A DNA stretch of 55,145 nucleotides from Gemmatimonadota bacterium (GTDB lineage: Bacteria > Gemmatimonadota > Gemmatimonadetes > Gemmatimonadales > GWC2-71-9). Position 1 is the first letter of the stretch, and each line of letters opens with the position of its first letter. The notes under the pieces are model-generated. The model was not told the origin of the DNA. It worked only from the letters and a program-made list of their open reading frames with translations, and did no database searches. Location: the NCBI GenBank assembly GCA_003223395.1, contig QHUZ01000030.1, positions 1 to 55,145 on the forward strand. The letters run 5' to 3'. A program made the translations under genes and the position numbers. Below, one piece after another: positions 7,726-25,154 of this stretch.

Positions 7726-8375
7726 TTGCCGACTTTGAGAAGGGCCCGGTAGCGGTAGAGGTAGACGAGGAGGGAGTACACGGTGAGCACGATCGCACCC
7801 GCCAACGTGACGGCGACGAACCAGCCGTGGAATTGATCCCAGAAGTTCCGGAAGTCCCCGGCCAGGTGCATCTGCGCGATCGCGTCCTTCCAGGCGAACC
7901 ACGCGATCGTCGCGCCGATGAAGATGTTCTGGACCACGGCTTTCAGCTTTCCGGCTCCCATCGCGGGAATCACGATGCCGCGGCGCTTGGCGAACCAGCG
8001 GAACACCGTGATGAGGACCTCACGGCCCACCAGCAGGAGCGCGACCCACAACGGCAGGCTCCCCCACCACGGAATCGCATAGTCGACCTTGTCGCGCGCC
8101 AGGATCGCGGGGTGTCGCGTCATCCAGAAAATGGGAATCAGCGTCGCGAACAGCAGCAGTTTATCCGCGATCGGGTCGAGCAGGATGCCGAGCTCGCTGG
8201 TCGTGCCGTAGCGACGCGCGAGATACCCATCGAGCAGGTCGGAAAAGGCGGCGATCAGGAAAACGACGAACGCGATGACCTTGGGCCAATACCCTTGAAT
8301 GAAGGGCAGCAGCGCGATGACGGGCGTGAGACAGATGCGCGCCAGTGTGATGATGTTCGGCAGCGTCCACCGCAT
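7722..8375 (-). CDS. pgsA: CDP-diacylglycerol--glycerol-3-phosphate 3-phosphatidyltransferase
   Basis: A 217-residue membrane enzyme making phosphatidylglycerol phosphate from CDP-diacylglycerol and glycerol-3-phosphate. The full CDP-alcohol phosphotransferase motif is visible: Asp46, Asp49-Gly50, Ala53-Arg54, Gly63, Asp67 and Asp71. Several hydrophobic segments flank it. The start MRWTLPNIIT is typical of PgsA (P-N-x-x-T). It lies 11 bp downstream of mglA and overlaps cinA by 4 bp. Substrate choice within the family cannot be proved from sequence, but context and length favour PgsA. Confidence 0.9.
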   Translation of the reverse strand: MRWTLPNIITLARICLTPVIALLPFIQGYWPKVIAFVVFLIAAFSDLLDGYLARRYGTTSELGILLDPIADKLLLFATLIPIFWMTRHPAILARDKVDYAIPWWGSLPLWVALLLVGREVLITVFRWFAKRRGIVIPAMGAGKLKAVVQNIFIGATIAWFAWKDAIAQMHLAGDFRNFWDQFHGWFVAVTLAGAIVLTVYSLLVYLYRYRALLKVGK

Positions 8376-8386
8376 CGAACTGGGCT

Positions 8387-9061
8387 TCAGCTCAACGTCT
8401 TGAGGACGAGCTTGCTCACCGCTTTCAGTGTGTCGAATACGCCATCGCCGCGAACCGCCACGGCCTCGTGGTAGGGTGCGTGGCCGACCCACTCGCCGTC
8501 GACCTTATCGACCAGGCTCTCGCCCGGATGGGCCGGATCGGGCGTCGGTTTCTGACGCGCGGCTTCTTCGATCGGCCAACCCGGATTAAGGGACGCCTGG
8601 AGGTCTTTGATCGGCGCGGCATTGGGAAGGTCGCGCTTGTTGTACTGAATCGCGAACGGGATCTTGGTCAGATCGTACCCGTATTCCGCCATGTTGTCGT
8701 ACAGGTTCTGCATCGACTCGACGTTGGCCTCCATGCGCTCGATCTGGCTGTCGGCGACGAAGACGATGCCGTCCACGCCCTTGAGAATGAGCTTGCGGCT
8801 GGCATTGTAGTACACCTGGCCGGGGACGGTGTAGAGGTGGAAGCGCGTCTTGAAACCGCGGATCGTCCCGAGATCGACCGGGAGAAAGTCGAAAAACAGC
8901 GTGCGCTCGGTTTCCGTCGCGAGCGAGATCATCTTGCCCCGCGTGTTGGGCGAGACCTTCCCATAAATGTGCTCCAGGTTGGTCGTCTTCCCACCCAGAC
9001 CGGGGCCGTAGTAGACGAGCTTACAGTTGATCTCGCGGGACGCGTAGTTGATCATCGACAT
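8387..9061 (-). CDS. mglA: MglA-type small Ras-like GTPase
   Basis: A 224-residue small GTPase of the MglA family, the polarity switch for motility in Myxococcus and more widely in non-motile bacteria. The Walker A motif [10 protein letters not shown] (19-28) is typical of MglA. Switch/G3 reads Y-T-V-P-G-Q and G4 is N-K-R-D. The G3 element TVPGQ instead of DxxGQ/G is normal in this family. It follows mglB by 12 bp, as expected for a GTPase and its GAP-like partner. No type IV pilus or gliding genes are in the window, so the process it polarises is unknown. Confidence 0.93.
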
Positions 9062-9073
9062 GGGCGCGCCCCG

Positions 9074-9559
9074 TTACCCGAAGAGTTTGTCAATTTCGTC
9101 TTCCGCCCCTTCGAGCAGGCCTTTTTGCTGGGCCTGACCCGTGCCGACCCGATTGAACATCTCCGCGAAGACCTTGTTGAGCTCTCCGACGACGCCTTTC
9201 GCCTTGAGCTTGACGAGCCCCAGCGTGGCGCGCTGATCGAACAGCACCACGAGGATCACGCGCTTCGCCACGTCGGCGAGGTACATCGATTCGCGCTCGC
9301 CCTGATGCACCAGCGAGGCGAACTCCGCCTCGCCGATCATTTTCGCGAGCTGATCGTTGGCGCTGAAGTCGGCGGCGGTGAGTGAGGCGAACGCGGTGGG
9401 ATCGAACTGCGGTGTTTCCCCGACCGTGGCGACGAGTTGGCCGTTGCGATCAACGAGCAGCGCACAGCGGGCGTTCGAGTCGCGGAGAAACGCCTGCAGG
9501 TGCGTCTGGATTTGCTTGAAATCGCTCTCGTTGAAAGACCAGCTTGCGGCCCCGGCCAT
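9074..9559 (-). CDS. mglB: MglB-like roadblock/LC7 domain protein (GAP for MglA)
   Basis: A 161-residue single roadblock/LC7 domain protein directly upstream of mglA. Family features are the N-terminal helix, the ALLVDRNGQLVATVG beta hairpin, the E-x-x-S-M-Y-L-A-D strand and V-I-L-V-V-L-F-D-Q-R. MglB dimers stimulate GTP hydrolysis by MglA and help place it at one pole. The C-terminus (about residues 140-161) is acidic and may be flexible. Gene order mglB-mglA matches the Myxococcus operon. Confidence 0.9.
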   Translation of the reverse strand: MAGAASWSFNESDFKQIQTHLQAFLRDSNARCALLVDRNGQLVATVGETPQFDPTAFASLTAADFSANDQLAKMIGEAEFASLVHQGERESMYLADVAKRVILVVLFDQRATLGLVKLKAKGVVGELNKVFAEMFNRVGTGQAQQKGLLEGAEDEIDKLFG

Positions 9560-20499: not shown

Positions 20500-20961
20500 T
20501 CAGCGCACGACCTCGAGCGACTTCTGCTCCAGCCGCAACTTGAGCTCCTGCAGCACGTGAATCGTCCGCGCCATGGCCGAGGCGGGCATGCCCTCGATGG
20601 TACGGGCGGCGAGGCGGCGCTCGAGCTGTCCGACGCGCAGGAGGACCTCCAACCCGTGCCGGGTGATGGTCACGCGCACGCCGCGATCGTCGTCGGGATC
20701 GGTCGTGGTCTCGACAAACCCCTTCGCCTCGAGCCGCTGGATGAATGTCGTGGCCGCGGCGCGCGACACGCCCAGCTCGCTGGCGACGTCACTGGGCCGC
20801 GCGCCGTCGGGGCCACCCAGGTCGACGGCCTGCATGACCGCGTGCGCCCGCTGTGACAGCCCAAACGCCTTGTAGGCGCGATTCCCGGCCCGCTCGATGG
20901 CCTGCTGCGCCGCGATCACGGCGTCGGTGAGCTGGAGGGCCAATTCTGAGCGGTCACCCAT
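20500..20961 (-). CDS. MarR-family transcriptional regulator
   Basis: A 153-residue winged-helix regulator; the start M-G-D-R-S-E-L at 20961 is preferred over an upstream ATG at 20994 that lies in a repeat. The core has G-A-R-P-S-D-V-A-S-E-L-G-V-S-R-A-A-A-T-T-F as helix-turn-helix, R-L-E-A-K-G-F-V-E-T and wing D-D-D-R-G-V-R-V-T-I-T. MarR proteins bind palindromes and release on ligand. A GTTAAC palindrome just upstream suggests autoregulation. The neighbouring genes give no clear efflux target. Confidence 0.87.
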   Translation of the reverse strand: MGDRSELALQLTDAVIAAQQAIERAGNRAYKAFGLSQRAHAVMQAVDLGGPDGARPSDVASELGVSRAAATTFIQRLEAKGFVETTTDPDDDRGVRVTITRHGLEVLLRVGQLERRLAARTIEGMPASAMARTIHVLQELKLRLEQKSLEVVR

Positions 20962-21096: not shown

Positions 21097-21486
21097 TCAG
21101 CAGGTTTCCGACCAATCGACCTTCGATTCCGTTTTGCAGCGCAGGCACTTCAGCGAGTCGGGCTTGCCGCTGAAATCCTGACGCTCCTGGCACTGGGGAC
21201 AGACGGCGTAGGTCTGGGTGACTTCCTCCCCTTCCCTGCCGCCCAGGGTAGGGCGGAGCAGACCGGTCCGCACCACGATGCTCCAGCGGTCGGGGGGCGA
21301 CTCGCGCACAGCGAGGTCGATGCGGCTGACACGCACCGGTTTCTTGCGCACTTCGATGACGACTTTCCCGTCATCAGTTTCGTCGACGATGGGGTACCAC
21401 GCGCCGCGCCGCAGAACGTCGGCGACGTTGTCCAGACATCGCGCCCAACCGCGTGGCGAGGGGGGGGGAACCATGCGCGGGGCCAA
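21097..21486 (-). CDS. Small zinc-ribbon protein, paralogue A (unknown family)
   Basis: A 129-residue protein of no family I recognise. It has G-W-A-R, L-R-R-G-A-W-Y-P-I-V, a beta-rich middle with S-P-P-D-R-W-S-I-V, then T-Y-A-V-C-P-Q-C-x-x-R-Q and a second C-L-R-C pair near the C-terminus. The two C-x-x-C pairs would bind one zinc. The protein at 22233-22622 is a clear paralogue with the same order of motifs. No signal peptide; likely cytoplasmic. It is divergent from the MOSC gene by 26 bp. Confidence 0.65.
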   Translation of the reverse strand: MAPRMVPPPSPRGWARCLDNVADVLRRGAWYPIVDETDDGKVVIEVRKKPVRVSRIDLAVRESPPDRWSIVVRTGLLRPTLGGREGEEVTQTYAVCPQCQERQDFSGKPDSLKCLRCKTESKVDWSETC

Positions 21487-21512
21487 TGTAGCACATCCTG
21501 CTAGATTTCGTT

Positions 21513-22091
21513 ATGCGCACGATCGGAACGGTCACTCGCCTGCAGATCCAACGCGACTCGCTGAAGACCGGCGAGAAGCCCACGCGAACCTACGACCCCG
21601 CGCCACTCCTCGCCGTGCCGGCGCTCCACGTCTCACCGGACGGCGCACTCGGCGCGAGCCCCGGTGGGATGTGGGCCGTGGACGTCCACCATCGCTCTCA
21701 TCCCGTCACCAAGAACGAAGATGGACTGCACGGCATCTCGCTCGGGTTCACATCGCACTACGACGCGATGCGCGCGCACTTCGGGGAGAAGGTCGTGGTC
21801 GGATGCGCGGGCGAAAACATCATCGCGACGAGCGACCGGCAATTCGGTTATGACGATCTCGCGGCCGGCGTCGCGATCCTGTCACCCGAGGGGAAGGAGC
21901 GCGTGCGGCTGAAGGTGCTCCAGGTCGCGCACCCGTGCAGACCGTTCACCGGATGGGCACTGGGAAAGACGGTCGAGCCCGAAGAGCTCAAAAAGCACCT
22001 CCAATTCCTCGATGGGGGCATGAGAGGGTTCTACTGCGTCGGTGAGGGGATGGGGACGGTGTCACTGGGAGATTCCGTTGCAATTCTTTAG
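21513..22091 (+). CDS. MOSC-domain protein
   Basis: A 192-residue MOSC domain protein. Family marks are G-C-A-G-E-N-I, a conserved cysteine in the V-A-H-P-C-R-P-F segment (residues ~145-151), and the end motif M-G-T-V-S-L-G-D-S-V-A-I-L. MOSC domains carry sulfur or molybdenum cofactor-related chemistry on a conserved Cys; stand-alone forms such as YiiM reduce N-hydroxylated bases. The substrate is not clear here. It is flanked on each side by one zinc-ribbon paralogue on the opposite strand. Confidence 0.82.
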   Translation: MRTIGTVTRLQIQRDSLKTGEKPTRTYDPAPLLAVPALHVSPDGALGASPGGMWAVDVHHRSHPVTKNEDGLHGISLGFTSHYDAMRAHFGEKVVVGCAGENIIATSDRQFGYDDLAAGVAILSPEGKERVRLKVLQVAHPCRPFTGWALGKTVEPEELKKHLQFLDGGMRGFYCVGEGMGTVSLGDSVAIL

Positions 22092-22096
22092 GACAT

Positions 22097-22220
22097 GCAA
22101 AGGCTAGGCCTCAGACGCAGCAGCGGGCCACCGGAAACAGGAAACGGGACAATCCCGCGCGAGGGTTGTCCCGTTGACGTTTGACCAAAAACCGCGGTGC
22201 GTCTGCAGCCTAGCTTTTGC
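22097..22220. terminator. Nested long hairpin between convergent genes (bidirectional terminator or structured RNA)
   Basis: Outer arms GCAAAGGCTAGGC (22097-22109) and GCCTAGCTTTTGC (22208-22220) pair over 13 bp with one mismatch. A second pair, CAGACGCA and TGCGTCTG, lies inside, with GCGG/CCGC next to it. The centre is a perfect 10-bp stem AACGGGACAA/TTGTCCCGTT. The MOSC gene ends just left of it and paralogue B ends just right, so it probably terminates both. Confidence 0.65.
22131..22151. repeat. Short 7-bp array, 3 units (CMGGAAA)
   Basis: Heptamers CCGGAAA, CAGGAAA and CGGGACA run into the left arm of the central terminator stem. It is the shortest array reported here and could be chance. 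Confidence 0.45.
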
Positions 22221-22232
22221 AGGTCCCCGCTT

Positions 22233-22622
22233 TTAGCTCAGTTCATCCCAGGCCATCGCCGCGCTCTTATGGCAGCGATCGCATATCATTTCATTCGTCC
22301 TGGCTTCAATGCCCTGCCGATGTCTGCACGCTGGGCACACCGCGTATGTCAGTGGGAAGATTCGCCCGAGCCGTTCGATCACACGCGGCTCGCAGCGGAC
22401 GATCGTCCACCGTTCCGGCGGATGATAGCGGATCTCGAGGAAGCGACGATCGACCGGCACGTTGTGCCGGTTGACGTCGAGGACGACGATGTTGCTCGAG
22501 GAGATGCGAACGACGGGATACCATGCGCCACGCCGCAGCGTGTGCGCGCCCGCCGGACCGACGCGAGCCCAACCCTTCACCTGCAACCGCGTCGGCGTGA
22601 CCATTCGGTTAGCGCTTTCCAT
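22233..22622 (-). CDS. Small zinc-ribbon protein, paralogue B (unknown family)
   Basis: A 129-residue paralogue of the 21097-21486 protein, with G-W-A-R, L-R-R-G-A-W-Y-P-V-V, P-P-E-R-W-T-I-V, T-Y-A-V-C-P-A-C-x-x-R-Q, a late C-D-R-C pair and a closing W-D-E-L-S (W-S-E in the other copy). It differs mainly in the N-terminal ~15 residues and in the loop before T-Y-A-V-C-P. No signal peptide. The shared N-terminal fold plus a C-terminal zinc ribbon suggests a nucleic-acid or protein-binding role, but this is inference. Confidence 0.65.
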   Translation of the reverse strand: MESANRMVTPTRLQVKGWARVGPAGAHTLRRGAWYPVVRISSSNIVVLDVNRHNVPVDRRFLEIRYHPPERWTIVRCEPRVIERLGRIFPLTYAVCPACRHRQGIEARTNEMICDRCHKSAAMAWDELS

Positions 22623-22694: not shown

Positions 22695-25154
22695 TCAGCC
22701 ACACTCCGAAAACCCGCAGACGTGACATTTAGCACATCCCTCGATAAACGCCAGTTGCGAGCCGCAATCGGGGCATGCGCCAATGAAATCCTGCTCAGGC
22801 CCACGCGCCGCTCGCAGCGCCGCATCGCCCATGGCACCCCGCACCACTTCCGCCTGCGCCGGCGACTTCGTCCCCGTGCTCTCCAGCAGATCCTGCTGCA
22901 CGCCCTGCTTCTCCTGCATCCACTTCTCGATCGCGATGCCGATCGCGTCGGGGACGGACATCACCTTGTTCGGACCGAGGCCGACGGCGCGGTCGGAGGA
23001 GATCCCCCGCAGCTGCCGGTAGATCTCGGGCAGCGGCACGCCTGACCGCAGCGCCAGCGAGATCAGCCGCCCGATCGCCTCGACGTCCGCCATCAGCGCG
23101 CCACCCGCCTTGCCGAGCGACATGAAGACCTCGAACGGCTGGCCCTTGTCGTCTTCGGTGATCGTCACGTACATCGTGCCGAGCGGGGACTCGATGCGGC
23201 GCGTCGAGCCCTTGAGCAGATCCGGACGGGAGCGCTTGGCGCGGCGCTGCAGGTTCTCCGCCTCGACGTCGTGCAGCCGCTCCTTCGTCAAATGCAGCTC
23301 GGTGTCCAGCTCCGCGATGCGGCCGAGTGCTTCGACGAGGGCGTCCTTCCCTGCCCCTTCCTGCACCTTCTTCGCGGTCGAGCCGGTGGACAGCACCTGG
23401 TTCTCGCGCGCGCCGTCGCGATACACCGTGACGCCCTTGCACCTCAGCTGGTACGCGTAGCGGTAGATCTGCTCGACGTACTCCTCGGTCGCATCATTCG
23501 CGAAATTGCAGGTCTTGGAGATCGCCGAATCGGTGAAATCCTGGAACGCGGCCTGCATCTGGATGTGCCACTCCGGCGACACGTCGTGCGCGGTCACGAA
23601 GACCCGCTGCCATTTCTCCGGCACCGCGTCGAAGTGGATGTGACCCGCCTCCGCGATCTGCTTCACGAGGTCTTCGGAGTACCAGCCGTCGCGCTTGGCG
23701 ATCGCCACGAAGTCTTCGTTGACGTCGGGCATCAGCACGCCGGCCTGATTGCGCATGAACGCCACGGCGAACAGCGGCTCGATCCCCGACGAGCAGCCGG
23801 CGATGATGGAAATGGTGCCAGTGGGCGCAACCGTTGTCAGGTTGCAATTGCGCAGCTTCCGCATGGGGCGGATCCGCTCGCCACGCGCGTTGCGCGCGCA
23901 GGTGGCGTCCGGCCCCCAGATCGACCGCTCCCACTCGGCGAACGGGCCGCGCTGCTCCGCCAGCTTCTCGGACGCGACCTTGGACTCCTCGTCGATGAAC
24001 TCCATCATCTTGCGGCCGAGCGCGACGCCTGCGTCGGAGTTGTACGGGATGCCGAGCCGCACGAGGAGGTCAGCCCAGCCCATGATCCCGAGGCCGATGC
24101 GGCGGATGCGCTTCGCCAGATCGTCGATCTCGGCGAGCGGGTACTTGTTCGCGTCGATGACGTTGTCGAGGAAGTGGGTGCAGAGATGCACCGCCGTGCG
24201 CAGGCCGTCCCAGTCCACATCCCCGTTCTTGACGAACAGGCCGACGTTGATCGAGCCGAGGTTGCACACGTCGTAGGGAAGCAGCGGCTGTTCGCCGCAG
24301 GGGTTCGTGGCCTCGTAGCTCCCGAGGTGCGGCACCGGGTTGTAGTGATTCGCGCGATCGATGAAGAACACCCCCGGCTCGCCGGTCTTCCAGGCGCCGT
24401 GGACGATCTGCTTGAAGACGTCGCCGGCGTCGAGCTGGCCCACGACCTTGCCGGTGCGGGGGTGGATCAGATCGTAGGACTTCCCCGCCTCGAGCGCGAG
24501 CATGAATGCGTCCGTGACCGCGACCGAAATGTTGAAGTTCGTGACCTGCGTGAGATCGTCCTTGCAGTGGATGAAATCCATGATGTCCGGATGATCCACC
24601 CGCAGGATGCCCATGTTGGCGCCGCGGCGGGTTCCGCCCTGCTTGACGACGTCCGTCGAGGCGTCATACAGCTTCATGAAGGAGACGGGACCGGAGGCGA
24701 CACCCATCGTCGAACGGACGACGTCGTTCTTGGGGCGCAATCTGGAGAACGAGAATCCGGTCCCGCCCCCTGACTGGTGTACCAGTGCCATCGCCCGGAG
24801 CGTGTCATAGATGCCCGAGCGGCCATTGGAGAGGGCGTCTTCCACCGGGAGGACGAAGCACGCCGACAGCTGGCCGAGGGGACGGCCCGCGTTCATCAGG
24901 GTGGGAGAGTTCGGCATCCACACCCGCGTCGCCATGAGCTCGAAGAACGTCTCCGCGAGGCCCTCCACGGCCTTGGCCGATGCGCCATACGTCCGGTCGG
25001 GAGCCGCGATGGTCCGCGCGACGCGCCAGAACAGGTCCTCAGGGCGCTCCACCGGCTTCCCCTGGTCGTCCTTCACCAAGTAGCGGCGCTCGAGCACGGT
25101 GAGCGCGTTCGCGTTCAAGTCGAGACTATGGCGGCGGGCTTCAGATGCAGTCAT
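22695..25154 (-). CDS. nrdJ: Vitamin B12-dependent ribonucleoside-diphosphate reductase (class II)
   Basis: An 819-residue adenosylcobalamin-dependent reductase making deoxyribonucleotides. S-A-C-F-V-L-P-V and N-P-C-G-E-Q-P-L-L-P-Y-D-V-C-N-L-G-S hold active-site cysteines. T-G-T-I-S-I-I-A-G-C-S-S-G-I-E-P and T-R-R-G-A-N-M-G-I-L are family core elements. A C-terminal domain ends with cysteine-rich C-P-D-C-G-S and C-A-K-C-H-V-C-G-F-S-E-C-G, which regenerates the active site. The 130-bp upstream gap has no B12-riboswitch box that I can see. Confidence 0.96.
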   Translation of the reverse strand: MTASEARRHSLDLNANALTVLERRYLVKDDQGKPVERPEDLFWRVARTIAAPDRTYGASAKAVEGLAETFFELMATRVWMPNSPTLMNAGRPLGQLSACFVLPVEDALSNGRSGIYDTLRAMALVHQSGGGTGFSFSRLRPKNDVVRSTMGVASGPVSFMKLYDASTDVVKQGGTRRGANMGILRVDHPDIMDFIHCKDDLTQVTNFNISVAVTDAFMLALEAGKSYDLIHPRTGKVVGQLDAGDVFKQIVHGAWKTGEPGVFFIDRANHYNPVPHLGSYEATNPCGEQPLLPYDVCNLGSINVGLFVKNGDVDWDGLRTAVHLCTHFLDNVIDANKYPLAEIDDLAKRIRRIGLGIMGWADLLVRLGIPYNSDAGVALGRKMMEFIDEESKVASEKLAEQRGPFAEWERSIWGPDATCARNARGERIRPMRKLRNCNLTTVAPTGTISIIAGCSSGIEPLFAVAFMRNQAGVLMPDVNEDFVAIAKRDGWYSEDLVKQIAEAGHIHFDAVPEKWQRVFVTAHDVSPEWHIQMQAAFQDFTDSAISKTCNFANDATEEYVEQIYRYAYQLRCKGVTVYRDGARENQVLSTGSTAKKVQEGAGKDALVEALGRIAELDTELHLTKERLHDVEAENLQRRAKRSRPDLLKGSTRRIESPLGTMYVTITEDDKGQPFEVFMSLGKAGGALMADVEAIGRLISLALRSGVPLPEIYRQLRGISSDRAVGLGPNKVMSVPDAIGIAIEKWMQEKQGVQQDLLESTGTKSPAQAEVVRGAMGDAALRAARGPEQDFIGACPDCGSQLAFIEGCAKCHVCGFSECG

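Follow-up and report, generated by a model that had tools for sequence, protein, structure and literature searches.

The two small zinc-ribbon proteins that flank a MOSC gene in the 55,145-nucleotide stretch of Gemmatimonadota DNA analysed here (the window) belong to an unnamed, lineage-specific, and mostly strongly basic protein family of some uncultured Gemmatimonadota, and it is this lineage-expanded family, not a functional set with MOSC, that constitutes our main finding. The two proteins, designated w1 and w2, and the genes around them are arranged as follows:

20500 to 20961, minus strand: MarR-type regulator (PF12802, E 1.3e-11), downstream of w1 and in the same syntenic block.
21097 to 21474, minus strand: w1, family member of 125 residues (ATG start), with a predicted SH3-like barrel and C-terminal zinc ribbon (mean pLDDT of the model, 83.5).
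21513 to 22091, plus strand: MOSC-domain protein of 192 residues (PF03473, E 1.3e-7).
22092 to 22232, no strand assigned: palindromic repeat element of 141 bp in the gap between MOSC and w2; an insertion, outside the family.
22233 to 22622, minus strand: w2, family member of 129 residues, the nrdJ-linked copy (mean pLDDT of the predicted model, 85.2).
22695 to 25154, minus strand: nrdJ, adenosylcobalamin-dependent ribonucleotide reductase (NF006417, 1144.5 bits, above cut-off; also TIGR02504).

The preliminary description, made from the sequence of the window, had placed two minus-strand reading frames around a plus-strand MOSC gene, and both are present at these positions. w1 and MOSC are divergent, head to head, with their starts 38 bp apart; MOSC and w2 are convergent, tail to tail, with 141 bp separating their stops; and w2 starts 72 bp past the stop of nrdJ, which lies upstream of it on the same strand. 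The MOSC protein itself had no match among PDB sequences at E <= 1. As proposed earlier, w1 and w2 are real paralogs, sharing 39% identity over 128 columns (E 8e-28, far past chance). The length of 129 residues first given for both holds for w2, whereas w1 reaches it only from a TTG at 21486, the in-frame ATG yielding 125 residues. Both genes are under purifying selection, with a median dN/dS of 0.175 for w1 and 0.078 for w2, the latter approximating that of the ribonucleotide reductase (0.087; 45 pairs, 10 genomes each); across the five block genes tested (w1, w2, MOSC, the reductase, and MarR), the medians run from 0.08 to 0.18. The element between MOSC and w2 is a near-perfect palindrome (fold -79.5 kcal/mol, z -8.5) of MITE- or REP-like character, which recurs elsewhere in the genome as three near-full copies (at 77-80%) and as several partial copies, and the MOSC/w2 gap is far shorter in some relatives.

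Neither w1 nor w2 matched any Pfam or NCBIfam family above cut-off, and a literature search, shallow in depth, found no description of the family. The proteins are ~105-140 residues long and carry no export signal recognisable by eye. An alignment of 55 diverse members (alignment A1) has a mean column identity of 27% with key residues invariant: Arg30, Gly32, Trp34, Tyr35, Cys96, Arg102, Cys114, and Cys117 are present in all of the unique domain sequences (171/171). The zinc-ribbon cysteines, namely Cys96, Cys99, Cys114, and Cys117 of w2, form two CxxC knuckles in both w1 and w2, and all four are kept in 166 of the 171 sequences, which upholds the zinc-ribbon assignment made at the outset; in the remaining five, Cys99 is replaced by Ser. 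These five CPxS members (L131, L149, L155, L156, and L160) keep the other three cysteines, and four of them end in A-W-[WH]-E-T-G. A pI above 8 was found for 163/171 members versus 77/197 small non-family genes of the fetched loci, and the median net charge was +8 versus 0, a comparison whose significance is overstated because the family rows are related and are not independent samples. Only mildly basic are w1 and the Cpn10-linked copy, both with a pI of 8.4 (for w1, over the domain), and one member (L085, positions 833-1336) has a long Arg-rich C-terminal tail. Stop-codon recoding, considered for some matches, was rejected for the L005 copy, which was translated and whose stop sits just upstream of the start, as well as for its tandem-triple orthologues, which were judged by stop position only.

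Predicted models of w1 and w2 comprise a five-stranded SH3-like barrel (approximately residues 17-76 of w2) and, after it, a C-terminal ribbon of short hairpins, which zinc would fold. Structural alignment of w2 gave Z scores up to 7.5, modest values (under 8) that may, at a Z of about 7, reflect a common arrangement only; the match of its barrel with the CED-2 SH3 domain (VIA-align) had a Z of 7.4 and an rmsd of 1.4 over 54 residues. More generally, the N-terminal barrel superposes on SH3 domains (CED-2, spectrin, and beta-PIX) at 1.4-1.7 A over 50-54 residues in several rows, whereas sequence identity to them is 6-12%. Foldseek returned weak KOW, ribosomal, and DSIF matches (best PDB E, 0.14) and none at E <= 0.001, viral models included; the KOW-type barrels concerned (Spt5/DSIF, KIN17, OapB, and ribosomal proteins) all belong to nucleic-acid or RNP proteins and appear to share the same barrel, but had no sequence match to the family. 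Scans of the 55 members gave scattered weak matches, mostly to ribbons, and for w1 and w2 no known SH3/KOW family matched above its Pfam or NCBIfam cut-off. The ribbons of TiaS, S27ae, eL43, and TFIIB (PF23783, PF12773, and others) resemble that of the family in their CPxC...CxxC pattern and weak profile matches, whereas w1 and w2 score below the curated cut-offs and their SH3-like half is left without a match. The uncharacterised phage protein family phrog_10121 likewise has a C-terminal zinc ribbon in its 109-position profile, which 11/55 members match at E <= 0.01 (best, 9e-6), but the match is confined to approximately the last 30-37 positions, i.e. to the ribbon, in the members shown.

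Taken together, the SH3-like barrel, the zinc ribbon, the Arg and aromatic residues that never vary, and the marked basicity suggest nucleic-acid or RNP binding, and we tentatively favor, at somewhat less than even confidence, a reading in which the family, expanded in its lineage, would serve in the cytosol as an adaptor that binds nucleic acids or RNPs. The strand bearing Arg30, Gly32, Trp34, and Tyr35 may, together with Arg102, form a binding surface on the mostly basic protein, with nucleic acids or RNPs (the ribosome, RNA polymerase, or mRNA) as its target, and the several copies would then work side by side, each with a target or a condition of its own. For SH3-like barrels in general, peptides are as frequent a ligand as RNA or DNA.

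The window's own genome holds seven family members and one Pfam-detectable MOSC gene. Besides the MOSC-flanking pair, the members comprise (i) a tandem triple (L070, positions 8099-9291; also in G002), which comes after RidA-like and formate-tetrahydrofolate-ligase-like genes and sits between the RidA-like gene and a diacylglycerol-kinase-like gene; (ii) a single copy at C4 (L071); and (iii) a copy overlapped by 8 bp by a Cpn10-family gene (PF00166, E 2.6e-11; L072, positions 7992-8673). The names RidA, diacylglycerol kinase, and formate-tetrahydrofolate ligase, as well as ispG and pyk below, are our presumptive assignments, recognised from sequence. Including this genome and 60 relatives, the family is present in 26/61 genomes and reaches 18 copies in G034 and 14 in G024; the scanned relatives are nearly all recorded as Gemmatimonadetes or Gemmatimonadales MAGs. 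A survey of 395 sampled Gemmatimonadota genomes, whose copy counts are lower bounds because ~11 candidates were scored per genome, found it in 45, all within two taxonomic families of one order. Beyond Gemmatimonadota, the scope was 299 genomes of one other phylum plus a pattern scan. The only match among the 299 came from a contig binned as Novosphingobium (L069), on which a member whose DNA is 78% identical to that of a Gemmatimonadota copy adjoins a type I restriction methylase-like gene; a mis-binned contig is the simplest, if unproven, reading. A mobile or phage origin was rejected, as neither the family profile with one pattern against viral contigs, nor w2 against plasmids and phages, gave a match, in line with the Foldseek result for viral models.

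No neighbor common to all copies was seen, in clusters that contain spurious antisense frames from a simple gene caller, which also missed some members. Copies do occupy fixed orthologous positions, and the nrdJ/ispG block, the RidA triple, and the Cpn10 overlap are recurring loci. Genes that we take to encode cold-shock proteins lie near members in L118/L139, L136, and L161 (three genomes), and one of these members adjoins what is presumably a ribosomal protein S21 gene.

Other neighbors point toward the main rival of the adaptor reading, in which the family would be a redox-regulated zinc-ribbon chaperone whose Cys4 oxidation frees zinc and exposes a client-binding surface, by analogy with Ruc (Rv0991c). 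The Cpn10 overlap belongs to an association found in five loci (L072, L077, L087, L181, and L185), the triple comes after RidA, RidA neighbors recur in four loci, and rhodanese genes lie near other copies, accompanied by SufE in G118/G135. According to PMC7448276, Ruc too is a small protein with a Cys4 zinc ribbon, and ruc itself lies near GroES/GroEL and RidA genes in Chloroflexi and Gemmatimonadetes. Indeed, the Cpn10 and RidA neighbor types fit a chaperone better than an adaptor. However, these neighbors were noticed post hoc and are absent from most copies, 5/171 members are without one of the cysteines, and the layout is opposite: the ribbon is C-terminal here and the rest is predicted to be ordered, whereas Ruc, as described there, has an N-terminal ribbon, a disordered C-terminal partner region, and no SH3-like domain. 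On balance, we consider a chaperone role possible but unlikely.

As a gene order, the w1-MOSC-w2 trio is genuinely conserved within one clade. Within this inner clade, the order nrdJ-w2-MOSC-w1-MarR-pyk recurs, and MOSC lies between two members in 25 of the 33 loci of our genome scan; of the eight that remain, contig ends truncate four (L045, L061, L064, and L065), two are outgroup loci with one member (L066 and L067), and two are unrelated (L068 and L069). All three genes share a contig in 16 genomes, which overlap in part with the scanned loci (G000-G008, G019, G020, G024, G028, G034, G107, and G170), and the locus is cut by contig ends in G009 and G201. Twelve outgroup genomes lack w1 at this place (G014, G015, G025, G027, G029, G032, G033, G069, G255, G321, G334, and G338); in these, a w2-type copy precedes ispG, and the fetched block includes nrdJ in 11/12. 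A MOSC relative stands between the w2-type copy and ispG in 5/12 (G027, G032, G069, G255, and G321; in G027 and G032 it is missed by Pfam and was detected through similarity), whereas no MOSC homolog was found beside the w2-type copy in the other seven. MOSC is thus an optional component of a nrdJ-w2-ispG block that is itself old.

The preliminary description had taken the duplication around one gene to suggest a functional set. In such a set, w1 and w2 might, for example, regulate or assist a MOSC reaction, perhaps tied to nucleotide metabolism through NrdJ. While the recurrence of the trio and the MOSC relatives in outgroups agree with this, the outcome named at the start as refuting it, members at loci unconnected with MOSC, was obtained: with one detectable MOSC gene in the own genome, only 2/7 members adjoin it and 5/7 lie elsewhere, and other genomes carry up to 18 copies, the family as a whole being found mostly at a distance from MOSC genes. 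Moreover, the pyk-like gene, MarR, and nrdJ around the trio are as conserved as MOSC, so that plain synteny suffices to account for the order, and w1 and MOSC are >1 kb apart in L051 and L052. Such a set is, in our judgment, quite improbable.

A different possibility is that w2 serves the B12-dependent NrdJ specifically, as its partner or regulator, and that the other copies are later recruits. The w2-type copies of the outgroup nrdJ blocks, which are often the next gene on the same strand (the called genes overlap in G032), speak for it. However, NrdJ occurs in 29/29 genomes tested, which makes its co-occurrence with the family uninformative, and 13 of these have no detected family member, so that NrdJ is independent of w2. 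Further, the single copies of G118, G135, G242, and G284 lie on contigs other than that of nrdJ, and within the 13.0, 7.3, 9.0, and 10.5 kb around them, respectively, we found no homolog of nrdJ or of this MOSC, the latter with two MOSC queries only, which a distant MOSC may escape. We regard this role for w2 as improbable, and for the whole family a specific partnership with MOSC or NrdJ is the less likely reading.

The origin of w1 was assessed in a tree of 111 rows and 120 columns, many forks of which are weak. In it, w2 joins nrdJ-linked outgroup copies from genomes without w1 (support 94/87), whereas w1 joins the solitary G118/G135 copies (100/94) and then the Cpn10-linked copies (99/90). 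Since w1 groups with other copies, the local duplication first proposed is not favored by the tree, although it is not rejected either, as constraining w1 and w2 to one clade costs 8.3 log units (AU test, p 0.327). The copy at the conserved nrdJ-w2-(MOSC)-ispG locus is w2; under the adaptor reading, MOSC would be a positional neighbor in this old block, and w1 a later addition, made in one clade, across MOSC from w2.

A bolder interpretation, which we put forward as unlikely, is that one SH3-plus-zinc-ribbon module has been amplified to as many as 18 adaptors working in parallel, each conserved in its own right, and that several of these have become fixed next to different enzyme or chaperone genes (NrdJ, MOSC, Cpn10, and RidA). 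These would form a new class of paralogous regulators, acting either as nucleic-acid-binding controllers of the neighboring genes or as redox-switched helpers of the neighboring product. Alignment A1 provides a searchable definition of an uncharacterised family that, in uncultured Gemmatimonadota, accounts for as many as 18 genes in a genome. Should the copies be adaptors that differ in their targets, they would represent a regulatory or stress system at the level of the lineage, one that is missing from current family libraries.
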